Positions 31,461-58,165 of a DNA stretch of 64,000 nucleotides are shown here, in pieces. The DNA is taken from positions 6,250,001 through 6,314,000 of the forward strand of contig NZ_CP109171.1 in assembly GCF_036246005.1 (NCBI RefSeq), written 5' to 3'. The stretch comes from Streptomyces sp. NBC_01723. Lineage in GTDB: Bacteria; Actinomycetota; Actinomycetes; Streptomycetales; Streptomycetaceae. The position numbers and the translations under genes are program-made. The stretch's first letter is position 1, and the number at the start of each line of letters is the position of its first letter. The notes under the pieces are model-generated. The model made no database searches and had not been told where the DNA came from. It saw only the letters and a program-made list of their open reading frames with translations.

Positions 31461-32930
31461 ATGTTCCTGACCATCACCACCACCGGCACCCCCGGACACC
31501 CCGCGACCGACCTCGGATTCCTGCTGCACAAGCATCCCGACAACGCGCAGGCGTTCTCCACCTCCTTCGGCACGGCCCACGTGTTCTACCCGGAGGCGGA
31601 GGAGCAGCGCTGCACGGCGGCGCTGCTGCTGGAGGTCGACACGGTGGCGCTGGTCAGGCGCGGCAAGGGCAAGGGCCGGGGCGGCGCCCCCGACGCGGCC
31701 CTCGCGCAGTACGTCAACGACCGCCCCTACGCGGCCTCCTCCCTGCTCGCCGTCGCTCTGAGCAACGTCTTCTCCAGCGCGATGCGCGGCGTGTGCAAGG
31801 CCCGCCCCGAGCGCGCCGCCGAGCCGCTGCCGCTGCGCGTCGAGATCCCGGCGCTGCCCGCCCGCGGCGGACCCGGCCTCGTCCGCCGCCTCTTCGAGCC
31901 CCTCGGCTGGGCCGTCACCGTCGAGGCCGTGCCGCTGGACACCGACTTCCCCGAGTGGGGCGAGTCGCGCTACGTCCGCCTGGCCCTGGAGTCCGGCACC
32001 CGCACCCTCTCCGACGCCCTGCGCCACCTGTACGTCCTGCTGCCGGTACTCGACGACGCCAAGCACTACTGGGTCTCGCCGGACGAGGTCGACAAGCTGC
32101 TGCGGGCCGGCGAGGGCTGGCTGCCGGGCCACCCCGAGCAGAAGCTGATCACCAGCCGCTACCTGTCCCGCCGCTGGTCGCTGACGCGCGAGGCGATGGA
32201 GCGACTGGAACTGCTCCGGCTGGCGGAGACCGACGACAGCGAGGTCGAGGAGATCGACAACGCCGTCGCGGCCGAGACCGAGCAGGAGGACCGGCCGACC
32301 CCGCTCGCCGTGCACCGCCGCGAGGCCATCCTCACCGCGCTCCGCGACCACGCCGCCGCCCGCGTCCTCGACCTCGGCTGCGGCGAGGGCCACCTGGTGC
32401 GCGAACTGCTCAAGGAGCCGCGGTTCACCGAGATCACCGGCGTGGACGTGTCGGTGCGCGCGCTCACCATCGCCTCCCGGCGGCTCAAGCTGGACCGCAT
32501 GGGTGAGCGGCAGGCCGCGCGCGTGAACCTCCTCCAGGGCTCCCTCGCCTACACCGACAAGAGGCTGGGGGGCTACGACGCCGCCGTGCTCAGCGAGGTG
32601 ATCGAACACCTCGACCTGCCGAGGCTGCCCGCCCTGGAGTACGCGGTCTTCGGCGCGGCCCGCCCCCGTACCGTCGTCGTCACCACGCCGAACGTCGAGT
32701 ACAACGTGCGCTGGGAGACCCTCCCGGCCGGCCACGTCCGCCACCGCGACCACCGCTTCGAGTGGACCCGAGAGGAGTTCCGGACCTGGGCGGAGACGGT
32801 CGCCGAACGGCACGGATACGACGTCGGGTTCCGCCCCGTCGGTCCCCACGACCCCGAGGTGGGACCGCCCACCCAGATGGCAGTCTTCAGCACCAGGACC
32901 CCGACCGCGAAGGAGGCGAAGGCCGCATGA
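31461..32930 (+). CDS. hen1: 3'-terminal RNA ribose 2'-O-methyltransferase Hen1
   Basis: A 489-aa bacterial Hen1. The N-terminal regulatory domain (about 1-245, MFLTITTTGTPGHPATDLGF) is followed by a SAM-dependent methyltransferase. That domain has LDLGCGEGHLVREL and the metal-binding SEVIEHLDL plus RHRDHRFEWTR, which supply the Glu/His ligands. In bacteria Hen1 works with Pnkp to repair ribotoxin-cleaved tRNA, methylating the damaged 3' end before sealing. It overlaps pnkp by ATGA. This copy looks intact although its partner is truncated. Confidence 0.95.
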   Translation: MFLTITTTGTPGHPATDLGFLLHKHPDNAQAFSTSFGTAHVFYPEAEEQRCTAALLLEVDTVALVRRGKGKGRGGAPDAALAQYVNDRPYAASSLLAVALSNVFSSAMRGVCKARPERAAEPLPLRVEIPALPARGGPGLVRRLFEPLGWAVTVEAVPLDTDFPEWGESRYVRLALESGTRTLSDALRHLYVLLPVLDDAKHYWVSPDEVDKLLRAGEGWLPGHPEQKLITSRYLSRRWSLTREAMERLELLRLAETDDSEVEEIDNAVAAETEQEDRPTPLAVHRREAILTALRDHAAARVLDLGCGEGHLVRELLKEPRFTEITGVDVSVRALTIASRRLKLDRMGERQAARVNLLQGSLAYTDKRLGGYDAAVLSEVIEHLDLPRLPALEYAVFGAARPRTVVVTTPNVEYNVRWETLPAGHVRHRDHRFEWTREEFRTWAETVAERHGYDVGFRPVGPHDPEVGPPTQMAVFSTRTPTAKEAKAA

Positions 32931-34171
32931 CCACCATGGACACCCCCGGGACCACCGACACCACCGCGAGGACCCGGAACCTCCCCGTCACCGACCTCTC
33001 CCTCGTCGTGCTGATCGGTGCCTCCGGCTCCGGCAAGTCCACCTTCGCCCGGCGCCACTTCAAGCCCACCGAGGTCATCTCCTCCGACTTCTGCCGCGGC
33101 CTGGTCGCCGACGACGAGAACGACCAGAGCGCCAGCGGGGACGCCTTCGACGTCCTGCACTACATCGCCGGCAAGCGGCTCGCGGCCGGCCGCCGCACCG
33201 TCGTCGACGCCACCAACGTGCAGCAGGACGCCCGCCGTCAGCTGATCGACCTGGCCAAGCGGCACGACGTGCTGCCCATCGCGATCGTCCTCGACGTCCC
33301 CGAGCAGGTGTGCGTCGAGCGCAACGCCACTCGCACCGACCGCGCCGACATGCCCCGCCGGGTCGTCCAGCGCCACACCCGCGAACTCCGCCGCTCCCTG
33401 CGCCACCTGGAGCGCGAGGGCTTCCGCAAGGTGCACGTCCTGCGCGGCGCGGCGGAGGCCGAGCACGCCACCGTCGTCACCGAGAAGCGGTTCAACGACC
33501 TCACCCACCTCACCGGCCCCTTCGACATCGTCGGCGACATCCACGGCTGCGCCGCCGAACTGGAGGCCCTGCTCGGCAAGCTGGGCTACGCCGACGGCGT
33601 CCACCCCGAGGGCCGCACCGCCGTCTTCGTCGGCGACCTGGTCGACCGCGGCCCGGACAGCCCCGGCGTCCTGCGCCGCGTGATGTCCATGGTGAAGTCG
33701 GGCAACGCGCTGTGCGTCCCCGGCAACCACGAGAACAAGTACGGCCGCCACCTCAAGGGCCGGAAGGTCCAGCACACCCACGGACTCGCCGAGACCGTCG
33801 AGCAGATGGACGGCGAGAGCGAGGAGTTCCGCGCCGAGGTACGGGAGTTCATCGACGGCCTGGTCAGCCACTACGTCCTCGACGGCGGCCGGCTCGTGGT
33901 CTGCCACGCCGGTCTGCCGGAGAAGTACCACGGCCGCACCTCCGGCCGGGTCCGCTCGCACGCCCTGTACGGCGAGACCACCGGCGAGACCGACGAGTTC
34001 GGGCTGCCGGTGCGCTACCCGTGGGCCGAGGACTACCGGGGCCGCGCGGCCGTGGTCTACGGCCACACCCCGGTCCCGGAGGCCAGCTGGCTCAACAACA
34101 CCATCAGGCAGAACAACAGCCTGCCGCCACAAGGCGCACCAAGAGCAGCAAGCCTGACACCAGTCGCCTAG
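32927..34171 (+). CDS. pnkp: Polynucleotide kinase-phosphatase Pnkp, truncated by the element (ligase domain lost)
   Basis: A 414-aa product; full bacterial Pnkp is about 850 aa. The kinase domain (P-loop IGASGSGKSTFAR) and the metallophosphatase domain (DIHGCAAELEALLGKLG, VGDLVDRGPDSPGVL, GNHENK, YGHTPVPEASWLNNTI) are intact. Immediately after WLNNTI, where Pnkp normally continues with the DTGCVFGG(K/R)LTALR segment leading to the adenylyltransferase domain, the sequence becomes unrelated (RQNNSLPPQG...) and stops at 34171. The last 21 codons are therefore element DNA. End-healing might persist, but RNA sealing cannot. Start ATG 32927; 32936 is an alternative. Confidence 0.93.
   Translation: MTTMDTPGTTDTTARTRNLPVTDLSLVVLIGASGSGKSTFARRHFKPTEVISSDFCRGLVADDENDQSASGDAFDVLHYIAGKRLAAGRRTVVDATNVQQDARRQLIDLAKRHDVLPIAIVLDVPEQVCVERNATRTDRADMPRRVVQRHTRELRRSLRHLEREGFRKVHVLRGAAEAEHATVVTEKRFNDLTHLTGPFDIVGDIHGCAAELEALLGKLGYADGVHPEGRTAVFVGDLVDRGPDSPGVLRRVMSMVKSGNALCVPGNHENKYGRHLKGRKVQHTHGLAETVEQMDGESEEFRAEVREFIDGLVSHYVLDGGRLVVCHAGLPEKYHGRTSGRVRSHALYGETTGETDEFGLPVRYPWAEDYRGRAAVVYGHTPVPEASWLNNTIRQNNSLPPQGAPRAASLTPVA
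34091..34120. other. Left attachment junction (attL) of the integrated element
   Basis: The pnkp frame leaves its family at about 34105. AACAACA occurs twice around the junction (34094-34100 and 34112-34118), and a short dyad (AGGCAG/CTGCC) follows. The crossover core probably lies within CTCAACAACACCATC. The exact core cannot be fixed without attR, which is beyond the window. Confidence 0.65.
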
Positions 34172-34187
34172 CCATCATCGATGCAGG

Positions 34188-35591
34188 TCAGTGAGTCAGG
34201 GCGAGATCCCTGCCGGAACCCTCTGAAGGCTCGCCCGCGTCTTCCAAGACTCCCCGGGTGCTGTCCGCGAGAGGCTGGGGAGCGTCTGGGGAGATCTTTT
34301 TCTCTCCACCCTCAAACCAGTTCTGCATCGCGGTGCGGCCCCGGCCATCCGCCTCGGGCATCATGTGCGCGTAGATCCGGAGTGTGATCGACGGATCCGC
34401 GTGGCCAAGCCACTTCGAGACTGCCACAGGGTTCTCCCGCGAGTCCAGCTGCACACTGGCGTAGGTGTGACGCAGCGAATGGAAGCCCATCTCGCGGTCC
34501 TCCTCGTACCGCCGCACCGTCCGGAACATCCCCGGCTTACCGGCGATGGGCCGCTTCGACACCACGGGCGCCATCGCCAGCCCTACCGCCTCCAACGCCG
34601 GCTTCCACATCGTGTTGTTGAAGTAGTCCCGCCTCCAGCCCCCGCCGCGGCTCGCGGTCAGGAGCAGAGCAAACGTGCGGGGCGCCCGCTCCTTGATCTC
34701 CTTCTCCGTCTCACCGTCAGCGGGGTCACCCCAGGGCAGCGTCACCGCCTTGGCCGGCCAGCGGGCGACATGCTCGCGGACCTGCTGAAGCAGGTGGGCG
34801 GGCACGGGCACGGTCCTCGTCTTGCGGCCCTTGGGCAGCGCGAAGACGAGTTTCGACCCCACCTTCTTTATCTGCCTCTGTACATGGATGACCTGCCCGT
34901 CGAAGTCGACGTCCTCGAGAGCCAGCCCGAACACTTCGCCCTGCCGCAGCCCGGCCCCGACACCGAGGTCGATGGCGAGCCGGACCTGTTCGTCGATCGC
35001 GGCGCGCACCATCAGGACCCGGTCCCGAGTCCACGCCTCGGCGCGCGGCTCCGGCCGGGCGGGGGGACGGACGGTCTTCTGGGAGCGGCAGTAGTTCTTC
35101 GTGATCCGCTCGTCGTCGACAGCGGCCTGGAGGATAGCGGAGAGCGCCGCCCACACGTCGTTCACGGTGCCCGGCCCGAGCTGCGCGTTGAGCGCCGACA
35201 GCCAGGTCCGCAACTGCGGAGTCTTGATCGTGTTCAGCGGCTTCGAGCCCAGGTGGGTGAGGATGTGGTTCCACACCTTGCCGCGGACCGTGCCCCGGGT
35301 GACCGGGTCGGGGTAGGACTGGCTGGGCCACCAGTGCTGCTCGACGTACTCACTGAGGAGGATCTTGCCGTCGCGGGGGTCGATGAACTCGCCGCGGGTG
35401 GACTCGTGCTGAGCCTTCGCCAGCCACGCCTTGGCGCCTTCGGGCCCGAGGAGCTTGTCGAAGCTGCGGTCTTTGACGCCGGGTACGCCGGCTACCCGGT
35501 ACCGCTTGCCCTGGTTGCAGCGGGGCGTGGGGATGGTCCGCTTGCCCTTGTCGTCGAGCTTGTACCAGCGGTCCTCGATGTAGCCGGCCAC
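34188..35591 (-). CDS. int: Tyrosine recombinase (integrase)
   Basis: A 467-aa site-specific recombinase. A core-binding SAM-like domain (about 60-165) precedes the catalytic domain. The catalytic residues are the Arg of GVGAGLRQGEVFGL, H-x-x-R in FHSLRHTYASVQ, the His of WLGHADPSITL and the nucleophilic Tyr of RIYAH. The GTG start has AAGGGGGA upstream. Its 3' end is 83 bp from the presumed attL, the usual place for an element's own integrase. Use of a protein gene (pnkp) rather than a tRNA gene as target is less common for this class. Confidence 0.95.
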   Translation of the reverse strand: MAGYIEDRWYKLDDKGKRTIPTPRCNQGKRYRVAGVPGVKDRSFDKLLGPEGAKAWLAKAQHESTRGEFIDPRDGKILLSEYVEQHWWPSQSYPDPVTRGTVRGKVWNHILTHLGSKPLNTIKTPQLRTWLSALNAQLGPGTVNDVWAALSAILQAAVDDERITKNYCRSQKTVRPPARPEPRAEAWTRDRVLMVRAAIDEQVRLAIDLGVGAGLRQGEVFGLALEDVDFDGQVIHVQRQIKKVGSKLVFALPKGRKTRTVPVPAHLLQQVREHVARWPAKAVTLPWGDPADGETEKEIKERAPRTFALLLTASRGGGWRRDYFNNTMWKPALEAVGLAMAPVVSKRPIAGKPGMFRTVRRYEEDREMGFHSLRHTYASVQLDSRENPVAVSKWLGHADPSITLRIYAHMMPEADGRGRTAMQNWFEGGEKKISPDAPQPLADSTRGVLEDAGEPSEGSGRDLALTH

Positions 35592-35617
35592 GAGGTGTCC
35601 CCCTTGGTTGCGCGGTC

Positions 35618-36067
35618 TTAGACCATGACTCTCTCGGGCGAGTCCATGGTGACGATCTCACCCTGCCACAGCTGGAACCACTGCTTCCCGGCGAGGAACT
35701 TCTCGATGGCCGGGTTGAGGATCCGCACGAGGAACTCGGAGGGCAGGCCGGGGCAGACGTGGAGCCGGACGACGCCCTGGCATTCCCGGATTTGGACGCC
35801 TGCCCGCAGGTCGACGCCCGGGTCGGCTATGTAGCGGACGGTGAGGGGGCTGTCGGGGGAGTCGGCGCTGATGATCTGGCCGCGCCAGATCTGGAACCAT
35901 CCGCACTGCTGGACGAACGTCTCAAGGGCGACGTTGAGGGGTTCCAGGTAGTCATCGGCGACGGTGCCGTACTGAAGTTTGATGTGGACGCGTCCGCGGC
36001 TCTCGTGGATCTCGACGAGTACGCCTGGTGCGAGGGTCTGGGTGGCTTCGTACACAACGCGCAGCAT
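35618..36067 (-). CDS. Hypothetical protein with an internal duplication
   Basis: A 149-aa protein; ATG 36067 with GGGAGGG upstream. It consists of two similar roughly 60-residue units. Unit 1 has GVLVEIHESRGRVHIKLQYG and GWFQIWRGQIISADSPDSP; unit 2 has GVQIRECQGVVRLHVCPG and QWFQLWQGEIVTMDSPERV. Each ends in WFQ(I/L)W(R/Q)G(Q/E)I(I/V). The fold is unknown. It lies between repressor and integrase on the same strand, so it may be a lysogeny-expressed gene. Confidence 0.75.
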   Translation of the reverse strand: MLRVVYEATQTLAPGVLVEIHESRGRVHIKLQYGTVADDYLEPLNVALETFVQQCGWFQIWRGQIISADSPDSPLTVRYIADPGVDLRAGVQIRECQGVVRLHVCPGLPSEFLVRILNPAIEKFLAGKQWFQLWQGEIVTMDSPERVMV

Positions 36068-36224
36068 GCGCCCTCCCGTCGTTGCTGTGCGCCTGCGCGA
36101 CGAGAGTCGGAGACGCACGGTTGTGGAAGGGTACGTCCCGTGAGCAGACCGCGACAATCTGTTCGGAGAATGTCTACTTACGGACTTCTTCTTGTCAGCG
36201 GTCTGCTCGCACGGAAGGTCTCTG

Positions 36225-36656
36225 CTAGTCGTTGTCTCGGCGTGCGCGCTCGTCGGCTTCGATCATTGCGCGCCAGCGTCGCAGTTCAGACTCGGGCATG
36301 CCGGCGAGGTGTCCGACGATGATGCGGACGTTGTCGCCGTAGCCGGCGAGTTCGGTCGCTTCGTATTCCAGCCACTGCTCGGCGGCGGCGGCCTTGACGC
36401 GCCGTTCGGTGGTCTGGATGGCGGCGGCAATTGCGCGGAGTTGTGCGGGGCTCGGGGGGTTGGCGCCCGGGTTGGTGACGAGGCGGGCGAGGTAGGGCTT
36501 GGAGAGTTTCAGCCCTGTCTCCGGGTCGGCTGCGAGCCCGGCCATCTTGGCGTAGGAGAGACCACGGTCGTTTGCGTCCTGGATGAGCTTCGAGAGCGCA
36601 CCTCGGGAGCTCGGCGCTGCCGTCCCGGTGTCCGGGGCGGTGGCCGCTGCCGTCAT
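36225..36656 (-). CDS. Xre-like helix-turn-helix regulator (candidate lysogeny repressor)
   Basis: A 143-aa protein. Residues about 18-85 (LSKLIQDANDRGLSYAKMAG, LKLSKPYLARLVTNPG) form a helix-turn-helix like those of phage/AICE repressors. The C-terminal half is helical and charged. ATG 36656 has AGAGGA upstream; a TTG further upstream is less likely. It diverges from a second small HTH gene across a palindrome-rich region, which is the architecture of a genetic switch. Confidence 0.75.
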   Translation of the reverse strand: MTAAATAPDTGTAAPSSRGALSKLIQDANDRGLSYAKMAGLAADPETGLKLSKPYLARLVTNPGANPPSPAQLRAIAAAIQTTERRVKAAAAEQWLEYEATELAGYGDNVRIIVGHLAGMPESELRRWRAMIEADERARRDND

Positions 36657-36898
36657 GTCCTCTTCCTCTCGGGTCACTTTCAATACCGGCTGTCTCTGTA
36701 GGGGTCGGTAGGCGTCGAGAAAATACCAGCTCAGTCCCTACAACCATCCGGCAACCGAGACAGTTCGTCTACAGATGCATGCTATCGAGCCACAAGTTTT
36801 GCCGAGACTCGACGTCGATCGTCTCCAAACCGTAGACGACTCGTCTCGACTGTGCTTAGCTATGTCAGGCAAGCAGCTCCGCACCACACGGGGGAAAT
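36657..36898. promoter_or_regulatory. Divergent switch region with repeated palindromic operators
   Basis: This AT-richer gap holds AGACAGTTCGTCT (36758-36770) and the perfect palindrome AGACGACTCGTCT (36834-36846). The latter overlaps an inverted pair TCGTCT-N9-AGACGA (36819-36839), and GAGAC/GTCTC arms lie around 36804-36825. The consensus AGAC-n5-GTCT sites likely bind the Xre-like repressor and/or the facing HTH protein. Confidence 0.6.
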
Positions 36899-37189
36899 GT
36901 GAGCCGACGCGCCAGCCGCTGCTGGACCCTACGCAGCATCGCGATCTTCAAGCACTACATGCAGTTCCCCGGCCGCGGCCGACCCTTCTCCGTCCGAACA
37001 CTGGCTGAAGCGTCCGGCGTCAGCCGCGGCCTGATCGACAAACTCCTGACCGGCCGGCAAAGCACCGCCGACGTCGACGACGCCACCGCCCTCGCGGAGG
37101 CTCTTGGAAGCGCCATCCTGCCCCTTTTCGCGCCTCCATCGTCTCCAGAACAGATACGAACGACTCAGAACCTCGACCCCCACGAGTGA
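36899..37189 (+). CDS. Small Xre-type HTH regulator (Cro-like position)
   Basis: A 96-aa protein with a clear HTH: FSVRTLAEASGVSRGLIDKL, then LTGRQSTADVDDATALAEAL. The GTG start follows GGGGGAAAT. It is the first rightward gene after the switch region, the position of Cro-type antirepressors. The true N-terminus could be a few residues shorter. Confidence 0.75.
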   Translation: MSRRASRCWTLRSIAIFKHYMQFPGRGRPFSVRTLAEASGVSRGLIDKLLTGRQSTADVDDATALAEALGSAILPLFAPPSSPEQIRTTQNLDPHE

Positions 37190-37198
37190 GGAACCCCA

Positions 37199-37426
37199 AT
37201 GTCGAACAAGCCGAAGCCGCCGCCCCGCGGATGGCTCTGGACTGAAGACGCCGCCGACTACCTCGGCCTCTGCGTCACCACCCTCTACCGGTGGCGCCGC
37301 GACCAGTACGGGCCGGCCAGCGTCCAGCACGGACGCCGCCGCTACCGCTACAAGATCGCAGAACTCGACGCGTGGATGAACGGCGACACCGCCGACCAGA
37401 AGCGCCAGCCCGCACACGCCGCCTGA
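37199..37426 (+). CDS. AlpA/MerR-like HTH protein, candidate excisionase
   Basis: A 75-aa protein with an HTH_17 domain: WLWTEDAADYLGLCVTTLYR, then WRRDQYGPASVQHGRRRYRY. This is the typical form of excisionases and AlpA-like factors of actinobacterial integrative elements. TGAGGA precedes the ATG. Confidence 0.8.
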   Translation: MSNKPKPPPRGWLWTEDAADYLGLCVTTLYRWRRDQYGPASVQHGRRRYRYKIAELDAWMNGDTADQKRQPAHAA

Positions 37427-37552
37427 CCGGCGACGCAAAGAGGCCGCCGCGACCCGCTAAGCCCGCGACGACCTCACGCTCCACCCCATCCAGAGCACGC
37501 AACGAAAGGGGCTTCACGTGCCTCGATCATCTCAGAACTTCGGCGGTGTCCG

Positions 37553-38179
37553 ATGACTCTTGACACCCGCATCTTCATCCTCGACCAGGTCGACCCGCAG
37601 GAGACGTTCCGGTTCTGCCGTGACCTTCTCGGCGCCACCGACCGGCACGTCTGGTACGACCGGCAGGACAGCACGTGGCGCAAGGGCGAGGCGTCCGTCG
37701 CATCAGACAACCCGTGGACGGTGGGCAATGAGCTCGGCCAGGGGCTGCCCGCACTGCTCGACATCTCCTACCGCCCGGACGCCCCGCTCAGGACCGCGGA
37801 GCAGGCGGCCGAGCACGACGAGGACATCTGCAACCTCCCTGGCGTCGCCTGGTACGACGAGGCGGCCGGCCCCTGTGACGGCGTCCACTCCTGGAATCGC
37901 GCCTGCTGGCTGGAGGTCTCGTTCGACACCGCCTACGGCTACCGCGACGACCGTGGCTACGGCTGCGGTGACCTGCATGCCGAGTACGTCGCCAAGCTTG
38001 GTCAGTGGCTGGACGCCAAGGGTGTCCGCTGGGAGTGGGAGAACGAGTTCACGGGCGAGATCCACAGCGGCTACTCCCGCCTGATCGACCTTGCGTCGGG
38101 TGGCTTCGAGGCCAGCGCCTGGTTCCGCACCGCCGTCCTGCCCTTCATCGAGGCCGAGGCGAAGGGCGGTGCTCGGTGA
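37553..38179 (+). CDS. Hypothetical phage protein
   Basis: A 208-aa acidic soluble protein (FILDQVDPQETFRFCRDLLG near the N-terminus) with many Trp, Tyr and Asp residues. I recognise no family with confidence. It starts the rightward run of overlapped genes; a 12-codon ORF (37518-37556) ends on its ATG. The next gene overlaps its stop (GTGA). Confidence 0.8.
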   Translation: MTLDTRIFILDQVDPQETFRFCRDLLGATDRHVWYDRQDSTWRKGEASVASDNPWTVGNELGQGLPALLDISYRPDAPLRTAEQAAEHDEDICNLPGVAWYDEAAGPCDGVHSWNRACWLEVSFDTAYGYRDDRGYGCGDLHAEYVAKLGQWLDAKGVRWEWENEFTGEIHSGYSRLIDLASGGFEASAWFRTAVLPFIEAEAKGGAR

Positions 38180-38670
38180 GCGCGTTCGCCCGCTTGAAGC
38201 AGATGATCCGCACCCGCCCCGGCCAGATGACGGTGTGGTCCGAGTCCGAGGTCACGGCCGCCGTCGACGCCTTCCGCGCCGAGGTGTTGGCCGAGCGGGA
38301 CACGCAGTTCGTGGCGTGGCTGCTGAAGAAGGCCCGCGAGTGCCCGACCGCCTCGGCCCGCCAGGAGAGGGCGGCCGACGCGATCGCCCGGCTCGCGTCG
38401 AAGGTGGCACGTGGCGCGGTCCGCCCGGACAACCTGCGCAGCAACTTCTTCCAGCCCGGCCACACGTACTCGGACAGCAAAGCGGGCGCGGGCACGGACT
38501 GGCAGTTCCGGTGCGACAGCGTCACGGCTCACCCCGAGAACGGCGAGCGCGCAGCTATCGGCTGGCGGCACTTCCGGGGCGAGTGGGAGCCCTACGCCTA
38601 CTACGAGGACGACTACGAGGTCCACCAGGCCGTCGGCATCACGGACATCACCGAGGAGGTGGCGGCATGA
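38176..38670 (+). CDS. Hypothetical phage protein
   Basis: A 164-aa protein. A helical N-terminal half (VDAFRAEVLAERDTQFVAWL) and an acidic C-terminus (YYEDDYEVHQAVGITDITEE) are visible, but no known motif. The GTG start overlaps the previous stop, and its TGA overlaps the following ATG. Confidence 0.75.
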   Translation: MSAFARLKQMIRTRPGQMTVWSESEVTAAVDAFRAEVLAERDTQFVAWLLKKARECPTASARQERAADAIARLASKVARGAVRPDNLRSNFFQPGHTYSDSKAGAGTDWQFRCDSVTAHPENGERAAIGWRHFRGEWEPYAYYEDDYEVHQAVGITDITEEVAA

Positions 38671-38951
38671 CCGCCCGCACCTTCGACCTGCCGGCCGAGT
38701 CGGATCCGGTCCTGTCGGCGATGGCCACAGTCGAGAAGGCCCTGCACCAGTACTTCGAGGGTTCGCCGACGCCGCGCCTGTCCGCCGCGCTGATCATGTC
38801 GCAGGCGTTCGGCAGCCAGCGGGAGGCCACTGCCGCCGCCTACCGGGATGCCGCCGATCTGGCCGCCCGGTACGCGGCGGGCACGGTCGAGCAGTCCGTC
38901 CTCCGCGACCTCGCCACCGAGTACCGGCGCAAGGCCCAGGAGGCGTCATGA
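38667..38951 (+). CDS. Hypothetical phage protein
   Basis: A 94-aa helical protein (MATVEKALHQYFEGS, REATAAAYRDAADLAARYA). It is coupled by ATGA to both neighbours. Function unknown. Confidence 0.7.
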   Translation: MTARTFDLPAESDPVLSAMATVEKALHQYFEGSPTPRLSAALIMSQAFGSQREATAAAYRDAADLAARYAAGTVEQSVLRDLATEYRRKAQEAS

Positions 38952-39184
38952 GCGTCGCCAGCCTCCCGTCGCCCGTCGTCTACGTCCTCGACCTCGACTC
39001 CGATCAGACAACCACGCACGTCTTCTGCTGCAACCCGGACCGGGCCCTCTGCGGCCACGACGTCAGCGACGACCTCGAAGTCGACGGCCCCACGCCCAAC
39101 GACTGCGTCGTCTGCCTCGACCTCGAAGAACAGCCCTGCCCCGTCTGCGGCTACCAGCCCGACACCGAGGAGGTGACGTCGTGA
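38948..39184 (+). CDS. Small Cys-rich protein, possible zinc ribbon
   Basis: A 78-aa protein with paired cysteines (FCCNPDRALCGHD, CVVCLDLEEQPCPVCGYQPD) suited to zinc binding. It is coupled to both neighbours. Function unknown. Confidence 0.7.
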   Translation: MSVASLPSPVVYVLDLDSDQTTTHVFCCNPDRALCGHDVSDDLEVDGPTPNDCVVCLDLEEQPCPVCGYQPDTEEVTS

Positions 39185-39417
39185 GCATCCCGAACCTGCT
39201 GGCGTCCCTGTCCGGCGGCGACCTGCCCGCGAACGCGGTGGGCGAGGAGCGCTGCCTGATGCCGCCGATCGGCTGCGGCAAGCCGCTGACCGCCCCCGAC
39301 GGCACCACGCGCGTCTTCTGGGACGACGCCGAAGCCCACCGGTACGAGACGGAATGGCGGATCACCGGACTGTGCCCGGACTGCCAGGACCGCATCGAGG
39401 CGGAGGGCGACTGGTGA
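39181..39417 (+). CDS. Small zinc-ribbon-like protein
   Basis: A 78-aa protein. CLMPPIGCGKPL and GLCPDCQDR give two Cys pairs, as in phage proteins that bind a structural zinc. The GTG start overlaps the previous stop. Function unknown. Confidence 0.7.
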   Translation: MSIPNLLASLSGGDLPANAVGEERCLMPPIGCGKPLTAPDGTTRVFWDDAEAHRYETEWRITGLCPDCQDRIEAEGDW

Positions 39418-39632
39418 TGGACGCCTACACCTTCAACGCCCTCGTCGCGGTCGGGACTCCGGTCCGGGTGTTCCCGAACACCCGCCAGGACCCGCCCCGC
39501 ATCACCCGCACCCGCAGCCGAGCCACGGACCTCTGCCACGGCCTCACCGTCGTCCACGTCGACGACCACACCCTGCCCTACCGCGTCGACCAGCTCGACG
39601 TGCTGCCCGACGACTTCCCCGTGGAGGCGTGA
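39417..39632 (+). CDS. Hypothetical phage protein
   Basis: A 71-aa beta-rich protein (VGTPVRVFPNTRQDPPRITR, LTVVHVDDHTLPYRVDQLD), possibly a small SH3-like barrel. TGATG overlap with the upstream gene. Function unknown. Confidence 0.65.
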   Translation: MDAYTFNALVAVGTPVRVFPNTRQDPPRITRTRSRATDLCHGLTVVHVDDHTLPYRVDQLDVLPDDFPVEA

Positions 39633-39877
39633 TGGCCCGCCCGATCCGCGACCTGGACGTGCCCCTCACCGACCTGCGACGGGACATGCGCCGGCTGGTG
39701 GCCCGTCAGCGGGTCGCCGCCTCCGCCGAACGCTTGCAGCTGCTCCTCGCCCACCCCGAAACCGCGACGGTTCCGGCGTCGGACGGCGAGCAGGCCGAGC
39801 AACGGCACTGGCTGTACGACGCCGACGCAGACGCCACCACCCCCGCCTTCCCCTACCCGACCGCCCAGGAGGCGTGA
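39632..39877 (+). CDS. Hypothetical phage protein
   Basis: An 81-aa protein with an amphipathic helical N-terminus (LTDLRRDMRRLVARQRVAAS). ATG 39632 overlaps the upstream TGA (TGATG). Function unknown. Confidence 0.65.
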   Translation: MARPIRDLDVPLTDLRRDMRRLVARQRVAASAERLQLLLAHPETATVPASDGEQAEQRHWLYDADADATTPAFPYPTAQEA

Positions 39878-40098
39878 TGGACCAGCCGACCGTCGTCCTC
39901 AACCAGACGATCGCCCTCACCCCCAACCCGGACGCCATCGCCCTCGACGAGGTGGACGGCCACCAGATCCTCGACCTCGGCAACCGCATCCAGGTCGCCC
40001 TCGGCCTGTCCAGCCAGGACGCCCTCGACAAGCTCGCCACCCTCACCGCCAAGGCCGCCGCAGACAACCGGGCCCGGCACCTGCGGGAGGTGGCCTGA
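39877..40098 (+). CDS. Hypothetical phage protein
   Basis: A 73-aa protein (VVLNQTIALTPNPDAIALDE, LGNRIQVALGLSSQDALDKL). TGATG overlap upstream; one base separates it from the next start. Function unknown. Confidence 0.65.
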   Translation: MDQPTVVLNQTIALTPNPDAIALDEVDGHQILDLGNRIQVALGLSSQDALDKLATLTAKAAADNRARHLREVA

Positions 40099-40099
40099 C

Positions 40100-40303
40100 A
40101 TGGCGACCGTGATCGAGCCCCGGCCGCTCGCCGACCTGGAGCAGGACGCCATCGCGCGCGTCGAAACCGAGATGGCGCGACGGGCCCGCGGCGTGAAGCC
40201 GTGGACGACCACCGAGTACGTCGATCACGTCGCCCGCGTCCACGCCCACTACGAGCAGCGCCGCCAGTGGCTCCGCACCCACGAACAGGAGGCCGCGGCG
40301 TGA
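40100..40303 (+). CDS. Hypothetical phage protein
   Basis: A 67-aa charged helical protein (DLEQDAIARVETEMARRARG). Its stop overlaps the next GTG. Function unknown. Confidence 0.65.
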   Translation: MATVIEPRPLADLEQDAIARVETEMARRARGVKPWTTTEYVDHVARVHAHYEQRRQWLRTHEQEAAA

Positions 40304-40563
40304 GCACCTACCTGCACGACGGTGTCGTCTTCGACCTGACCGTCACCCACACCGACGTGACCGGCGTCGAATGGCAGTGGTCCGGCGACTGGAACGACGC
40401 GGGCGAGCCGTGGATGGGGGCGACGGAGAAGGGCTCCGTCATCTTCCTGCCGCCGCTGATCACCCTCCCCGACCTGTACCTGTGGCACGGGCCGCTCATC
40501 CCCACCCCGCGCCGCGCGACCGCCAGCCTCTACCGGCGCGTACTCCGACAGGCCGCAGCATGA
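40300..40563 (+). CDS. Small phage protein, possibly phiSA1p31-related
   Basis: An 87-aa protein beginning MSTYLHDGVVFDLTVTHTDV with a Trp-rich middle (EWQWSGDWNDAGEPWMG). It resembles the group named after Streptomyces phage phiSA1 gp31, but I recall this from memory and it needs a search. The GTG start overlaps the previous stop. Confidence 0.6.
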   Translation: MSTYLHDGVVFDLTVTHTDVTGVEWQWSGDWNDAGEPWMGATEKGSVIFLPPLITLPDLYLWHGPLIPTPRRATASLYRRVLRQAAA

Positions 40564-40772
40564 CCGCCCCGCAGCCGACCCGCACCTCGCCGACCGCGGG
40601 CCTCCTCAACGCCATGGCCCGCCTCTACATCCGCCGCGCTACCCCGTTCATCGCCATCCAAGGGCGGGAGCTCGACGAGGCCCGCAACCTCAACCACCAG
40701 CTCCGCACCGCAGCCAGCGTCCGCGAATCACGGGCCGCCGGCTACTTCGACACCGACCTGGAGAAGCCGTGA
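40560..40772 (+). CDS. Hypothetical phage protein
   Basis: A 70-aa basic helical protein (LLNAMARLYIRRATPFIAIQ). ATGA-type overlaps on both sides. Function unknown. Confidence 0.65.
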   Translation: MTAPQPTRTSPTAGLLNAMARLYIRRATPFIAIQGRELDEARNLNHQLRTAASVRESRAAGYFDTDLEKP

Positions 40773-41236
40773 GCCTCAACCTGATACCGCGCCTGAAGGG
40801 TCCCGGCCGGCGCCGTGCCACCGACAAGGTCGCCGAACTCCGCGACGAGAACCGGCGCCTCCTCGGCCAGCTGTTCGGGGCCAGCGACGCCTACCAGATC
40901 CTCGACCAGCGGCTCACCGAGACCGCGTCCCGGCAGGCGGAGGCCGAGGAACTCGTCGTCCAGCAGCAGGCCGACATCGACGACCTCACCGCCGAGAACG
41001 AGCAGCTCCGCGACGAGTTGGCCGCCCTCAAGGTCCGCTTCGGGCCCGAGCTGGCCGCCGAAGCCAACGCCGACGCGATCACCGTGCCGCCCATGGTCCG
41101 CGACACCACCGCCTTCGAAGACCAGGCGACCGCGCCGATCCCCGTCATCACCCTGCAGCAGGCGTTCGGCAGCACCGACCCCGCCCACGTACCCGCCTGG
41201 GCCGTCCGCGACGACGACCCGGCCCCGGCCGCCTAG
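40769..41236 (+). CDS. Coiled-coil phage protein
   Basis: A 155-aa protein whose residues about 20-95 form a heptad-rich coiled coil (KVAELRDENRRLLGQL, DDLTAENEQLRDELAALKVR). The C-terminus is Asp/Pro-rich. A hairpin follows the gene (41289-41315). Function unknown. Confidence 0.75.
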   Translation: MSLNLIPRLKGPGRRRATDKVAELRDENRRLLGQLFGASDAYQILDQRLTETASRQAEAEELVVQQQADIDDLTAENEQLRDELAALKVRFGPELAAEANADAITVPPMVRDTTAFEDQATAPIPVITLQQAFGSTDPAHVPAWAVRDDDPAPAA

Positions 41237-41288
41237 ACCGCCGCCCGCCGGATGACCACCAGGCCGGCAGGCGGCGCACCACGCAAGA

Positions 41289-41315
41289 ACCCCGCCCGGG
41301 GATAGCGGGCGGGGT
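41289..41315 (+). terminator. Intergenic hairpin
   Basis: ACCCCGCCCG / CGGGCGGGGT, a perfect 10-bp stem with a 7-nt loop, lies in the gap between the coiled-coil gene and the next gene. Confidence 0.6.
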
Positions 41316-41346
41316 CCGGAACCCAGGATCCCACAAGGAGAACCCC

Positions 41347-41889
41347 ATGATCGGTGCGACCACCGACTACCAGATGGTCATCAAGGGCGAGCAGCGGTAC
41401 ACCGTCCCCAACGCCATCCAGGCCGCGCCCGGCCTCGTCGTCTTCCGCATGCCGAACGACCAGTCCATCAACTCGGCGGCCCGCTGGCGGATCGGCCACC
41501 ACGACGGGCGGGCCATCGCCGAAGCGATGTGCCGCGAGAACGCCTTCAAGGGCATCGACATCCTCGTCAAGTCCGGCATCGACTGGACGCTCGACGAGGA
41601 CGACCTCCAGAACGCGATCAGCACCGAAACCGCCCGCGACCTGTTCGCGAAGCTCTCCTACGCCTGGTGCGAGCAACCCGGCACCTCGTACATGCCCGGC
41701 GACGTCACCCGCAACGGCACCTACACCGACGCCGACATCGAGCAGGCCGCCGCCGAGTACAAGGACGACCAGCTCAATGCACTGGAGATCCTCACCGCGA
41801 TGGCGCACACCGTGCCGTGGATGGGCCTCGACACCAACGACTTCAACGACGCCCACAACCGCATCGTCGAACTCGCCGACGCCGACTAG
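41347..41889 (+). CDS. Hypothetical phage protein
   Basis: A 180-aa acidic protein (IGATTDYQMVIKGEQRYTVP; DIEQAAAEYKDDQLNALEIL). No family recognised. CAAGGAGAACCCC precedes the ATG. It lies just upstream of the recombination genes. Confidence 0.75.
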   Translation: MIGATTDYQMVIKGEQRYTVPNAIQAAPGLVVFRMPNDQSINSAARWRIGHHDGRAIAEAMCRENAFKGIDILVKSGIDWTLDEDDLQNAISTETARDLFAKLSYAWCEQPGTSYMPGDVTRNGTYTDADIEQAAAEYKDDQLNALEILTAMAHTVPWMGLDTNDFNDAHNRIVELADAD

Positions 41890-41950
41890 CAGGCGCCCCC
41901 ACAACCACATACGCCGCGCTGGGCGACCCCCACGCTCCGCGGCATCCCAG

Positions 41951-41989
41951 GCGGCCCGTCCCGCACCTCCCCCCGTCGGGACGGGCCGC
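41951..41989 (+). terminator. Intergenic hairpin before the exonuclease gene
   Basis: GCGGCCCGTCCC / GGGACGGGCCGC, a perfect 12-bp stem with a 15-nt loop, lies 30 bp before the next start codon. Confidence 0.6.
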
Positions 41990-42019
41990 CACCACCCAGC
42001 ACATCCTCAGGAGCGTCAC

Positions 42020-42973
42020 ATGAGCACCGAAAGCACCACAAACAACCCGGGCGTCGTCCCGGAGGGGGTACTGCTGGGCCACCTCACCCCCGGCACTCCG
42101 GACTGGGACGCCGCCCGCTCGGGTCTCACCATCACCGCCACCGAGATCGCCGCCGTCGTCGGCCTCTCCCCGTGGATGAGCCGCTTCACCCTCTGGCACA
42201 AGAAGGCGGGCCTGCGCGCGGCCCCGTTCGAGATGACCCCCGCCATCGAGTGGGGCAACCGGCTCGAGGACCCGGTCGCCGCGAAGTGGCAGGACGAGCA
42301 CCCCGGCTTCGTCGCCGCCCCGGCAGGGACATGGCAGCACCGAGAGCGGGAGTGGCAGCGCGCCACCCCCGACCGGCTCATCTACCCGCAGCCTGCCGCC
42401 GAGTTCGACCTGCCCGGTCAGGCGGTCGGCCTGCTGGAGGTCAAGACGTCGCCGATGGGTGACGAGTGGGGTCCGGACGGCGCCGAGGACGGGGTGCCGA
42501 TCTGGTACCGCTGCCAAGTCATGTGGCAGATGGACACCCTCGGCGTCCGCCGCACCGACTTCGGCGTGCTGATCTCCGGCCACGACTACCGCGAGTACAC
42601 CGTCGAGTACGACGAAGGCGAAGCGAAGATCCTCCGCGACGCAGCCCAGGAGTTCCTCGACGAAGTCCGCGACGGGAAGCGTCCGCCGATCGACAGCGCC
42701 GACGACACGTACAAGACCATCCGCGTCCAGCCCGACAGCTTCGACGACGTCGACATCGAGATCGCCGCAGAAGCCGCCGCCCGCTACGAGAACGCGCAGG
42801 CCGAATCCAAGGCCGCCGCAGCCGAGCTCACCGCCGCCAAATCCGTCGTCCTCGACCTGATCGGCACCGGCCGCCGCGCCGTCTGCAACGGACGCCGCAT
42901 CGCCTACCGCATCGCCAAACCCGACGGCACCACCAAGAGCCTCAACCCCTACAAGCAGAAGGAAGCCGCCTGA
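42020..42973 (+). CDS. YqaJ-type phage recombination exonuclease
   Basis: A 317-aa lambda-exonuclease-fold nuclease that would resect DNA ends to single strands. The fold is marked by LTITATEIAAVVGLSPWMSR (N-terminal YqaJ signature) and IEWGNRLEDPVAAKW (catalytic Glu). GLLEVKTSP (E-x-K) and the helix WYRCQVMWQMDTLG complete it. A C-terminal coiled stretch follows. CAGGAG lies upstream. Its TGA overlaps the recT ATG, so the pair forms a two-component single-strand-annealing system. Confidence 0.9.
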   Translation: MSTESTTNNPGVVPEGVLLGHLTPGTPDWDAARSGLTITATEIAAVVGLSPWMSRFTLWHKKAGLRAAPFEMTPAIEWGNRLEDPVAAKWQDEHPGFVAAPAGTWQHREREWQRATPDRLIYPQPAAEFDLPGQAVGLLEVKTSPMGDEWGPDGAEDGVPIWYRCQVMWQMDTLGVRRTDFGVLISGHDYREYTVEYDEGEAKILRDAAQEFLDEVRDGKRPPIDSADDTYKTIRVQPDSFDDVDIEIAAEAAARYENAQAESKAAAAELTAAKSVVLDLIGTGRRAVCNGRRIAYRIAKPDGTTKSLNPYKQKEAA

Positions 42974-43815
42974 TGAGCCAGATCAGCAACGCCATCGCCA
43001 CCCGCGACAACGGCCCCGAAGCCATCGTCCGCGCACACAAGGAAGACCTCACCCTCGTCCTCCCCTCCCACGTCAAAGGCGAGACCTGGATGCGCCTCGC
43101 CTACGGCGTCCTCCGCTCCAACGCCCAGCTCATGCAGGTCGCCACCCGCAACCCCGGCAGCCTCATGACCGCCCTCCAAGACTGCGCCCGCCTCGGCCAC
43201 GAGCCCGCCTCCAAGAGCTTCTACCTGGTGCCGTTCGGCAACGAAATCCAGGGCATCGAGGGCTACCGCGGAGTCGTCGAACGCATCTACCGCGCCGGCG
43301 CCGTCAAGGTCGTCCACGCCGAGGTCGTCTACGAGAACGACGAGTTCGTGTGGGAGCCCGGCACCGTCGACACCCACCAGCCGCCCCGCTGGGAAGGCCC
43401 CCAGACCGTCCCCTTCCACAAGGCCGACTGGTTCGCCGACCGCGGCGACGTCAAGGGCGCCTTCTCCTACGGCATCTTCCAGGACGGAACCCCGTCCCGC
43501 GTCGTCATCATCAACCGCACCTACATCAACAAGGTCCGCAAGGAATCCAAGGGCAGCGAAAGCCCGAAGTCGCCGTGGGTGAAGTGGTTCGACCAGATGG
43601 TCCTCAAGACCGTCGCCCACCGCTTGGAGCCGTGGGTGCCCACCTCCACCGAGTGGCGCAAGGAGCAGCTCCGCGCCGCCGCCGAAGTCACCGCCGAACA
43701 GGCCGGCCCCGCCGTCATCGCGCCGACCAACACCGGGCCCGGCTACCCCGAACCCACCTCGCTCGACGACTTCAACGACGAAGGCCCCGTCGAAGGCGAA
43801 CTCGTCGACGACTGA
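42973..43815 (+). CDS. recT: RecT-family single-strand annealing protein
   Basis: A 280-aa annealase. It contains the RecT core (VLRSNAQLMQVATRNPGSLM, LQDCARLGHEPASKSFYLVP) and IQGIEGYRGVVERIYRAGAV, with an acidic C-terminal tail (FNDEGPVEGELVDD). It binds the single-stranded DNA generated by the YqaJ nuclease encoded immediately upstream, for phage recombination-dependent replication or repair. Confidence 0.95.
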   Translation: MSQISNAIATRDNGPEAIVRAHKEDLTLVLPSHVKGETWMRLAYGVLRSNAQLMQVATRNPGSLMTALQDCARLGHEPASKSFYLVPFGNEIQGIEGYRGVVERIYRAGAVKVVHAEVVYENDEFVWEPGTVDTHQPPRWEGPQTVPFHKADWFADRGDVKGAFSYGIFQDGTPSRVVIINRTYINKVRKESKGSESPKSPWVKWFDQMVLKTVAHRLEPWVPTSTEWRKEQLRAAAEVTAEQAGPAVIAPTNTGPGYPEPTSLDDFNDEGPVEGELVDD

Positions 43816-43831
43816 CCCCACCCCACCCGCA

Positions 43832-43868
43832 CCGGGGTCCCGCCCGCCGCAAACAGGCGGGGCCCCGG
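43832..43868 (+). terminator. Intergenic hairpin after recT
   Basis: CCGGGGTCCCGCC / GGCGGGGCCCCGG pair over 13 bp with one T-G wobble, 17 bp after the recT stop. Confidence 0.6.
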
Positions 43869-43889
43869 CCAGAACAGGAGACCACAGCC

Positions 43890-44288
43890 ATGAAGGCACT
43901 GACCATCCGCCAGCCGTGGGCGGGCGCGATCGCCCACCAGTCGAAGCGGGTCGAGAACCGCTCGTGGAAGCTCCCCGCGAAGCACGAGGGCGCCCGCATC
44001 CTCATCCACGCCGGAGCCCAGCCCGACAAGTGGGCGGCCGTCTACGGAGAGCACCTCGACGTGTACTCCGCGATCATCGCCGTCGCCACCATCAGCAGCT
44101 GCCACTACGACAACGGCAACCCGGTCTGCTGCAGCTACTGGGCCCAGCCCGACCTCTACCACTGGGAACTCGCCGACGTGATCGCCCTGCCCGAGCCCGT
44201 GCCTGCCAAGGGCGCCCTCGGCTTCTGGACCCCCAGCGACGAGATCGTCAACGCTGCGCTCCGGCAGGAGACGGGAGTGGCCCTGTGA
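43890..44288 (+). CDS. ASCH-domain protein
   Basis: A 132-aa protein opening with KALTIRQPWAGAIAHQSKRV and ENRSWKLP, the signature of ASCH domains, which bind RNA or modified bases. Phage ASCH proteins may read or alter RNA, or have nuclease activity; that is not resolved here. CAGGAG precedes the ATG, and the next GTG overlaps the stop. Confidence 0.85.
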   Translation: MKALTIRQPWAGAIAHQSKRVENRSWKLPAKHEGARILIHAGAQPDKWAAVYGEHLDVYSAIIAVATISSCHYDNGNPVCCSYWAQPDLYHWELADVIALPEPVPAKGALGFWTPSDEIVNAALRQETGVAL

Positions 44289-44743
44289 CCAGCCTGCCGT
44301 ACACCGACGAGGACGCCCGCGCCGAGGCCGCCGCCCAGCTGCGCGCCGCCCACGGCCCGGAGTCCTTCGACGTGAACATCGAGGGCCACAAGATCCCCAG
44401 CCGGGGCGACGTCCAGTGGGACCAGCTTGGCGACGACGACTTCCACGACGCCAACCGTGAGATCGACGAGCACGTCGAGGACGCCGTCGACCTCGCACGC
44501 TGGTCCGTCGACCTCGGCGCCTGCGCACTTCGCACGACCACCGAACTCGCCTGGGGCCGCGGCGGCAACGCCTGGGACCTCGCCATCCAGATCGCCCACC
44601 GGCCTGCGCTGAAGGACGACCTGCGCGAGGCGATCACGACGGCCATCCGGGACGCGGTGGACGCGGCCCTCGCCAGCCACGGCATCGACGACACCCGCCT
44701 GCTGCACCAGTCCGCGCCCACTGACAAGGAGTCCGCGTCATGA
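44285..44743 (+). CDS. Hypothetical phage protein
   Basis: A 152-aa acidic helical protein (EIDEHVEDAVDLARWSVDLG; LREAITTAIRDAVDAALASH). It is coupled to both neighbours. Function unknown. Confidence 0.7.
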   Translation: MTSLPYTDEDARAEAAAQLRAAHGPESFDVNIEGHKIPSRGDVQWDQLGDDDFHDANREIDEHVEDAVDLARWSVDLGACALRTTTELAWGRGGNAWDLAIQIAHRPALKDDLREAITTAIRDAVDAALASHGIDDTRLLHQSAPTDKESAS

Positions 44744-45018
44744 CCGTCCGAACCATGCAACAGACAGAAGCGGACCTCCGGGCCGCACTCACCATCCTCG
44801 CCGACCGCTGGCACCAGATGGCCATCAACGAAGAGGCGTCGATCCCGCACCTCCAAGGCCCCGCCGCCGAGCAGGTCGGAGCCCAGATTCACCAGCGCGT
44901 GACCACCTATCGCAAGGCCGCCGCTGACGTCCGCGATGTCCTGCGGACTGGCCGGATTCCGCACGACCTGATGACCGACGCCGAGCTCGAGCAGCACGGC
45001 ACCCCGGCAGCCGAGTAG
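44740..45018 (+). CDS. Hypothetical phage protein
   Basis: A 92-aa helical protein (TEADLRAALTILADRWHQMA). ATG overlaps the previous stop. Function unknown. Confidence 0.7.
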   Translation: MTVRTMQQTEADLRAALTILADRWHQMAINEEASIPHLQGPAAEQVGAQIHQRVTTYRKAAADVRDVLRTGRIPHDLMTDAELEQHGTPAAE

Positions 45019-45030
45019 CCGACCCCGATC

Positions 45031-45065
45031 GGGGCCTGCCGCGGCCCGAATCTGCGGCAGGCCCC
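45031..45065 (+). terminator. Intergenic hairpin
   Basis: GGGGCCTGCCGC / GCGGCAGGCCCC, a perfect 12-bp stem with an 11-nt loop, lies 12 bp after a stop codon. Confidence 0.65.
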
Positions 45066-45084
45066 GGAACCAGGAGAGCACACC

Positions 45085-45459
45085 ATGACGACACTCACCC
45101 CGGACCAGGCCGCTGCCCGAGCCCGCCGCATCCTCGCCGCCCTCGGCCCCGTCCCCGCCTGGACGACTGCGGTCCTCGACCAGGCCGTCCTCCACCTCGG
45201 CCGCAGCGGACGCCCCTTCGGCTCCAACGACCTGCGGCTCATAGTCCCCGCCGACGACTGCAAGGCCGCCGGCCTGTACCTGCACCAGCTGATCGAGCTC
45301 GAGACGCCCGTCGTGCTCGTCAAGGTCGCCGAGGTCGTGTCGATCAACCCGAAGGCCCACGGCAAGCGCGTCAACGAGTACCGGCTGACCGCCGCCGGAC
45401 GGCGGTACCTCGAGGCCCGCGTCGCCGCCCGCACCCAGCAGCGGAAGGCCGCCGCGTGA
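45085..45459 (+). CDS. Small winged-helix-like phage protein
   Basis: A 124-aa protein ending with VNEYRLTAAGRRYLEARVAA, which looks like the wing of a winged-helix domain. FGSNDLRLIVPADDCKAAG could be its recognition region. The next GTG overlaps the stop. Assignment tentative. Confidence 0.65.
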   Translation: MTTLTPDQAAARARRILAALGPVPAWTTAVLDQAVLHLGRSGRPFGSNDLRLIVPADDCKAAGLYLHQLIELETPVVLVKVAEVVSINPKAHGKRVNEYRLTAAGRRYLEARVAARTQQRKAAA

Positions 45460-45749
45460 ACGCCCCCACCGGCGCCCAGCCGGATCCGCAAGGGGCGGCC
45501 GTCGTCGACCTCGTCGCCGACAGCCTCGCCACCCTCGACACGATCACCGACACCGCCGCGATCTACGTCACCGCCGCCGCAGGCATCTGCGCCGCCCTCA
45601 CCATCGCCGCCACCGCCATCTGCCGGGCCGCCATCACCGCCACCCGCCGCAGGAGGCACACCCGGCGCGAACTCCGCCGCATCGAGCACTACGCCAACCA
45701 CCCCGGCGCCCGCCAACTCCACACCACCCCGCGAGAGGAGACACCGTGA
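45456..45749 (+). CDS. Small membrane protein
   Basis: A 97-aa protein with one hydrophobic segment (AAIYVTAAAGICAALTIAAT) followed by a strongly basic tail (TRRRRHTRRELRRIEHY). Single-pass, N-terminus outside by the positive-inside rule. Function unknown. Confidence 0.7.
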   Translation: MNAPTGAQPDPQGAAVVDLVADSLATLDTITDTAAIYVTAAAGICAALTIAATAICRAAITATRRRRHTRRELRRIEHYANHPGARQLHTTPREETP

Positions 45750-46570
45750 CCGCCGCCGTCCGCGAAGCCCCCCACCACCGCAACACCGTGTGCGTGAAGC
45801 TCTACCGCTGCCAACTCCCCGAATGCCGCGACAGGTTCAACGAGCGCCGCCGCCAGATCGCGACCGGACAGCGGCAGCCCGACCGGATCCTCATCGACGC
45901 CACCCCCGTCCGGCAGCACATCACCGAACTGCAAGACGCCGGAATGACCCTCACCTGCATCGCACGGCTGGCCGGCGTCGCCCACACCACCATCTGCACG
46001 GTCATGAACGGCCGCCCGGCCAGCAAGCGAGGACGCCAACAGTCGACCACACCGGAAACCGCCGCCAAGATCCTCGCAGTCCGTCCCCTCACCGCCGTCG
46101 GCGCACAGCGACGCATCCGCGCCCTCGCCGTCGAAGGCTGGCCCGTGCCCCGCATCGCAGCCCACGCCGGAGTCTCGGCGTGGTGGGCATACAGCGTCCG
46201 ACCCGACTCCGTCATCCGCACCTGCAAGGCCGAGCAGATCGCCGTCGCCTACCAGGAACTACGCGACCTCATCCCGGAGGAACACGGCGTGTGCCGCGGA
46301 CACGCCGCCCGCGAACGCGCCCGCGCCAAGGACAACCGCTGGCCCGACGCCGCCTACTGGGACAAGCACGCCGCCGACCTCGAAGACCCCCACTTCGAGC
46401 CCATGTACGGCGTCACCCGCCGAGAGATCGTCGCCCACGACGCCAACGAACTCATGCGAATCAGCGGCCTCGACCGGCAAGCCGCCGCCCACCGCCTCGG
46501 CATCAGCAAGGCCTACATCGACCACGCCTTCCGCGAGTTCCCCCAGTACGCCGTCGAGGTCGCCGCATGA
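45746..46570 (+). CDS. HTH DNA-binding phage protein
   Basis: A 274-aa protein with several helix-turn-helix-like segments: TLTCIARLAGVAHTTICTVM, VPRIAAHAGVSAWWAYSVRP and QAAAHRLGISKAYIDHAFRE. N-terminal cysteines (CQLPECRDRF) may bind metal. Similar multi-HTH proteins occur in actinobacteriophages upstream of HNH or nuclease genes. Coupled to both neighbours. Confidence 0.7.
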   Translation: MTAAVREAPHHRNTVCVKLYRCQLPECRDRFNERRRQIATGQRQPDRILIDATPVRQHITELQDAGMTLTCIARLAGVAHTTICTVMNGRPASKRGRQQSTTPETAAKILAVRPLTAVGAQRRIRALAVEGWPVPRIAAHAGVSAWWAYSVRPDSVIRTCKAEQIAVAYQELRDLIPEEHGVCRGHAARERARAKDNRWPDAAYWDKHAADLEDPHFEPMYGVTRREIVAHDANELMRISGLDRQAAAHRLGISKAYIDHAFREFPQYAVEVAA

Positions 46571-46989: not shown

Positions 46990-47156
46990 CCTGCCTCACC
47001 GGGAAGATCCCGCACCCCAGCAAGGTCGCCGCCCGCAAAGAACTCGCCGCCGCCCAACGACGCCGCACCCAGCAGCAGCGGCGCGAAGAGCGCATCTACC
47101 GGTGCCCCACCTGCAACCAGTGGCACCTCACCAGCCGCACCCAACCCAGGCCATAG
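46986..47156 (+). CDS. Small basic zinc-finger-like protein
   Basis: A 56-aa basic protein with YRCPTCNQWHLTSRT (CxxC plus His), a frequent actinophage zinc-finger form. It ends the rightward run; a strong terminator follows. Confidence 0.65.
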   Translation: MTCLTGKIPHPSKVAARKELAAAQRRRTQQQRREERIYRCPTCNQWHLTSRTQPRP

Positions 47157-47170
47157 GCCGCACACGACAA

Positions 47171-47192
47171 AGGCCCCGCAGATGCGGGGCCT
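47171..47192. terminator. Intrinsic terminator between convergent transcripts
   Basis: AGGCCCCGCA / TGCGGGGCCT, a perfect 10-bp stem, lies between the end of the rightward run (47156) and the leftward GIY-YIG gene (47221). It could serve both directions. Confidence 0.75.
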
Positions 47193-58164: not shown

Positions 58165-58165
58165 C

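Follow-up and report, generated by a model that had tools for sequence, protein, structure and literature searches.

Why does the pnkp frame of this Streptomyces cease to resemble its family in mid-gene, and can the gene be made whole again? The question arises in the window (the whole stretch of 64,000 bp analysed here, C1:6250001-6314000 of an 8.85-Mb genome), where an intact hen1 (31461..32930, plus strand), recognised by its Hen1_L domain (Pfam PF12623, E 9.8e-114) and by methyltransferase families, lies directly 5' of pnkp, whose start at 32927 overlaps the hen1 end. The 5' part of pnkp (32927..34171, plus strand) encodes the kinase and most of the phosphatase, as judged from PF13671, PF00149 and the joined frame described below. 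The initial annotation had described this frame as family-like through WLNNTI and foreign thereafter, which our frame and family comparisons confirmed: the interrupted product has 414 aa, 393 of them native and 21 foreign, with its stop at 34171.

The missing half of the gene lies at the other end of the insert. PNKP_ligase (PF16542) has a single match in the genome, at C1:6373984-6375156 on the plus strand, and the frame of this 3' half opens just before a 12-mer at C1:6373738 and stays open for 484 codons. The same 12-mer, AACAACACCATC, stands at 34094-34105 (plus strand), 82 nt from the end of the integrase ORF (34188), and is the sole 12-mer common to the two junction regions compared; we designate this copy the attL core and the second, which was recognised by its match to attL and lies outside the window (C1:6373738-6373749), the attR core, the two being spaced 89,644 bp apart. 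In a 100-kb stretch, the core is found twice on the plus strand, both times at the junctions, and not at all on the minus strand, and the genome contains a single copy of the 16-mer beginning with the right core. Joining the flanks at the core restores the frame and gives 868 codons with a sole, terminal stop, that is, an 867-aa Pnkp in which kinase, metallophosphatase and PNKP_ligase form one chain adjoining hen1, whereas in this genome they are in two pieces. The proposal that an element had inserted in pnkp and cost it the ligase half was hence correct, the 3' half being 89,644 bp downstream behind the second core, and the further proposal that precise excision restores pnkp is upheld as a matter of sequence logic only, in that the joined frame is open.

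An unoccupied pnkp was found in G277, a genome listed as the same species. All 867 residues of its Pnkp, which unites the three domains in a single chain beside hen1, are matched at 98%; the joined 4,000-bp empty site aligns gap-free at 97.8% identity, and a search at E<=1e-60 gave no integrase match there. The initial annotation had named three outcomes that would count against an insertion, and all three turned out otherwise: the 3' half exists, a search of the genome for Pnkp and PNKP_ligase matches gave no second full pnkp, and intact relatives read through the site. Three simpler accounts of a short Pnkp are ruled out as well, namely truncation by chance or frameshift (by the exact join and the empty site), a naturally short Pnkp (by the intact relatives that cross the site) and a second copy elsewhere (by the genome match search). 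The core itself is not universal in pnkp. Among 30 pnkp loci that include the site, a set made of best matches and odd cases and not a random sample, 22 have the exact 12-mer and eight differ, seven of these by a one-base change giving NNTL and one (G219) by a larger change.

The insert is a prophage whose left 30 kb occupies 34094..64000 of the window and which runs on to C1:6373737 outside it, as delimited by att cores, gene calls and family matches. We called about 145 ORFs in it by a custom script in place of a standard gene finder, and 35 of these were taken into family searches, five of them for PADLOC only. A tyrosine integrase of 467 aa (34188..35591, minus strand; PF00589, E 6e-15; phrog_1 integrase, E 4.7e-51) adjoins attL. 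Further along the plus strand are a small HTH_17 protein (37199..37426; PF12728, E 4.3e-13), a candidate regulator or excisionase, a phage recombination pair, YqaJ-like and RecT (42020..43815; PF09588, E 1.2e-19, and PF03837, E 4.2e-33), and a DnaB-type replicative helicase (50153..51535; PF03796, E 7.1e-83). PHROGs and Pfam also identified TerL, an SPP1-type portal, a head protease, a capsid protein, tail proteins and an endolysin, along with a tape measure protein of 1,679 aa, and the family search added two DNA methylases and a LexA-type DNA-binding domain. The GC content is 69.3% in the insert and about 72% in the flanks, and no tRNA was found in the five 20-kb stretches searched. With an integrase, flanking att repeats, an empty site, terminase, portal, capsid, tape measure and lysis genes, this is a temperate tailed prophage; the label of a phage-like element given at first was right as to phage origin and too modest otherwise, the main head, tail and lysis genes being present. 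The insert looks, in fact, like a complete bacterial virus of about 90,000 bp, known here from its genes, and we assign its host to Streptomyces on the grounds that the nearest named proteins come from that genus. Near its right end are also a second tyrosine recombinase and Ku (L006:6626-7642 and L006:8314-9216; C1:6366626-6369216). Separately, a phage protein at 54432-55220 that has no Pfam match resembles the PADLOC model SspD (E 1.7e-13), the strongest result among the 10 phage proteins submitted to PADLOC, the others matching weakly (0.0003 or worse) or not at all.

We are therefore confident that a temperate tailed Streptomyces phage has integrated inside pnkp by site-specific recombination: the insertion is precise, the core stands at both ends, the site is empty in G277 and the phage side of the core is present in relatives described below. 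Recombination by the tyrosine integrase would have used a phage site with a core, AACAACACCATC, identical to the DNA coding for the conserved NNTI of Pnkp, and the pnkp site was probably chosen for its DNA, which is conserved and found widely in Streptomyces, as with other integrase targets. In the lysogen, Pnkp would end at Ile393 plus 21 foreign residues, and excision would restore the gene exactly; reversible inactivation of pnkp is, on the reading frames, a well-supported prediction.

What the lysogen would lose is probably more than was first supposed. The insertion point lies between NNTI and DTG of Pnkp, and the phosphatase chain of CthPnkp (4j6o) aligns through VYGHTP...NNTINIDTGCVFGG...YEPA, about 35 residues beyond the cut, so that the truncated protein has an incomplete phosphatase domain. 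The residues removed include a conserved Asp just after the core (Asp396, 16 residues from His380), which we take to be Asp392 of CthPnkp, where His376 and Asp392 are likewise 16 apart. In CthPnkp, His376 and Asp392 are essential for the phosphatase. Because the cut removes these 35 or so residues, conserved Asp included, not only the ligase but probably also the phosphatase is inactivated by the prophage, and only the kinase and Hen1 probably survive in the lysogen; the earlier view that kinase, phosphatase and Hen1 are all kept thus stands for kinase and Hen1 and probably fails for the phosphatase. The next gene 3' of pnkp lies on the opposite strand, so the insertion does not separate any downstream gene from its operon. 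Hen1 is described as activating the ligase and 2'-O-methylating the repaired RNA (PMC4411300), and with ligase and probably phosphatase gone, Pnkp-Hen1 repair of cleaved RNA would stop in the lysogen. One copy of RtcB is kept in the genome, and RNA sealing may therefore not vanish altogether.

The integrase has relatives that point to the same site. Among the matches listed, 22 (P0121-P0142) are 79-95% identical, 21 of them 467 aa long and one 474 aa, with that of Streptomyces sp. LKA04 at 95%. Two metagenomic viral contigs, L138 (93,470 bp) and L139 (64,708 bp), which may be fragments, encode integrases 82-83% identical, and in both the core is found uninterrupted just downstream of the integrase, with 14 bp in common with the host site; the locus of a third viral match to the core (L169) lacks an integrase. 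Truncated Pnkp proteins were sought by motif among the best 120 of 7,111 matches, many of which are contig-edge partials or frameshifts. One of them, the metagenomic P0010 (411 aa), departs from the family at the same codon, as judged from the protein, and its tail has the motif DIAPP, as do frames read through the phage sites of L138 and L139; DIAPP is absent from the 21-residue tail of our own prophage. P0096 and P0110 likewise depart from the family near the site, and the Pnkp of S. himalayensis (P0035, marked 'partial') stops at TWL, just before the core, the same species name being attached to a 75% identical integrase (P0147). A search with the end of P0010 gave no further foreign tail at the site in P0241-P0295 (among the 120 matches listed). 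As a separate observation, the 417-aa Pnkp of Streptomyces sp. MJP52 (P0015) becomes foreign after WLNNT, one residue before the site, with another tail, and perhaps reflects another element using the same spot. These proteins and contigs describe what looks like a phage lineage with pnkp as its attachment site.

More distant members of the same integrase family appear to go elsewhere. The IMG/VR contigs L140, L141 and L144 encode integrases 62-68% identical, and their integrase-side segment differs from the pnkp core, pointing to another host gene; that of L144 has 87% identity across 87 bp with C1:1351785-1351871, a stretch of our own chromosome inside the 3' part of a frame of 519 codons ending GVR. 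That stretch (L206) is a likely attachment site of the phage relatives and is vacant within its 3-kb locus. These phages, we infer, replace the end of their target gene and spare it, and the pnkp-cutting lineage would differ in this from relatives that seem to settle in such a gene-sparing site. Of the five viral records tested for a portal, those of L142 (whose integrase is 63% identical), L139 and L160 contain one that is 84, 76 and 75% identical, respectively; the portal in the L138 record reaches 40%, and the L140 record has none. In phage records, the portal is matched at 42% identity at best.

Among species representatives, lysogens at this site are rare, a conclusion that follows from the lack of a close integrase in our genome draws and of any lysogen found by attL pattern. 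Outside our own genome, integrase identity reaches no more than 54% in 392 genus genomes and 57% in 394 family genomes (two draws that overlap), and no pnkp, core or tRNA was seen in the flanks examined of 29 integrase loci at 46-54% identity. Phage records with an integrase match number 494, all below 60% identity. A search with the attL pattern over the genome contigs of 84,980 species gave 51 loci, 40 of them titled Hymenobacter, and no further lysogen, because in 51 of 51 the Pnkp match runs across the pattern; in viral contigs, our own attP had 0 matches and the two attL patterns 0 and 0.

What the phage gains from pnkp is a separate matter. One answer, to which we give slightly less than an even chance, is that pnkp is dispensable and happens to carry conserved DNA, so that its loss matters little and the phage gains a common site. 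In support, 28 of the 392 genus genomes have no pnkp match, one RtcB is kept in ours, and unrelated elements split pnkp too. The latter were found by reading one by one 33 genomes, our own and every other with at least two matches or a best E above 0; the remaining 331 of the 364 genomes with a match have one match at E 0 and lie outside this reading. Three of the 33 (our own, G131 and G390) have a clean insert between pnkp parts, all at different sites and all with open joined frames, and several others have only partial, rearranged or degenerate pnkp (e.g., G100, G133, G158, G219, G255, G282 and G354); these counts cover pnkp alone, with no control gene, and are not a measure of a hotspot. 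The G131 insert (13,648 bp) encodes a serine recombinase and is unrelated to our prophage, and that of G390 (7,514 bp) has a methyltransferase, three ORFs without family match and a 7-bp repeat, ACGCGAC. In G131 (L079, G131:C1:497001-516000), pnkp is split near the GNHE motif and the frame of the large serine recombinase runs on into the pnkp 3' part; in G390 (L080, G390:C3:2145001-2160000), the split falls in the kinase, and the three consecutive ORFs of 715, 576 and 409 aa, which have no informative family match, resemble a Tn554-like recombinase trio by eye. Against dispensability stand the pnkp match kept in 364 of the 392 genomes and dN/dS values below 0.4, so that selection must act on pnkp for at least part of the time.

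The same values have a bearing on whether the prophage acts as a switch, leaving and returning on cue so that Pnkp is regained when repair is needed, as in active lysogeny. In comparison with G277, the left part of pnkp has a dN/dS of 0.379, the right part 0.231 and hen1 0.264, without gaps, and neither pnkp part shows a stop, gap or relaxed constraint. Joining the flanks restores pnkp exactly, and there are precedents in SpyCIM1 and phiSa3; a gene interrupted and restored by excision is indeed what we have here, as read from the joined frame and G277. However, the dN/dS pattern fits recent and frequently reversed integration alike, excision by an intact phage would normally serve lysis, and lysogens are rare, so we consider such a switch unlikely. 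We are equally doubtful that a large Streptomyces phage lineage has evolved to occupy pnkp with excision regulating resistance to RNA-cutting toxins; on that view, the RNA repair coupled to Hen1 would be lost in lysogens and regained through regulated excision. The least probable reading, possible but unsupported, is that the 484-codon 3' half at the prophage end yields a separate ligase working with Hen1. Its first in-frame ATG, at residue 476, falls where the crystallised CthPnkp ligase domain (3ty9) begins, and residues 444-867 are covered by 4drf; against it, no in-frame ATG, GTG or TTG precedes residue 453, the GGAGG ahead of Met476 is only two bases away, and the phosphatase would still be cut.

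Integration of a temperate phage by site-specific recombination, with pnkp as its target, is thus the reading we retain, and it defines a candidate attB together with its integrase. Our lysogen (G000) and G277, with its empty site, make a natural pair for testing the loss of Pnkp-Hen1 against ribotoxins and phages. We found no report of a prophage in pnkp in the titles and abstract openings of the open-licence papers listed, and 'polynucleotide kinase' does not occur in the main text of a survey of actinobacterial prophages (PMC10023795).

Adjacent hen1 and pnkp with the same domains are likewise found in the Pnkp-Hen1 system of CthPnkp, with the PDB relatives 4drf, 3ty9, 4j6o and 4gp6, but the pnkp of this genome is split by a prophage. 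In the natural Pnkp1-Rnl-Hen1 variant, the ligase is a protein of its own (PMC4411300). As to the interruption itself, SpyCIM1, a phage-like chromosomal island of S. pyogenes that sits in the 5' end of mutL and whose excision with growth phase has been reported, is similar in that a phage-like element silences a repair gene reversibly by site-specific integration; its target, however, is a gene of DNA mismatch repair, while here an RNA-repair gene is cut in its middle by an element with a full set of structural genes, whose excision is predicted from sequence. The phiSa3int prophages of S. aureus, which inactivate hlb and restore it by precise excision (PMC6597384), are alike in that a prophage lies within a structural gene, inactivates it and gives it back on leaving, and differ in that their target encodes a secreted enzyme and their excision has been measured, where we predict restoration from the joined frame. 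With pnkp, an RNA-repair enzyme would be added to the host functions whose genes are interrupted by prophages and would be restored by excision.
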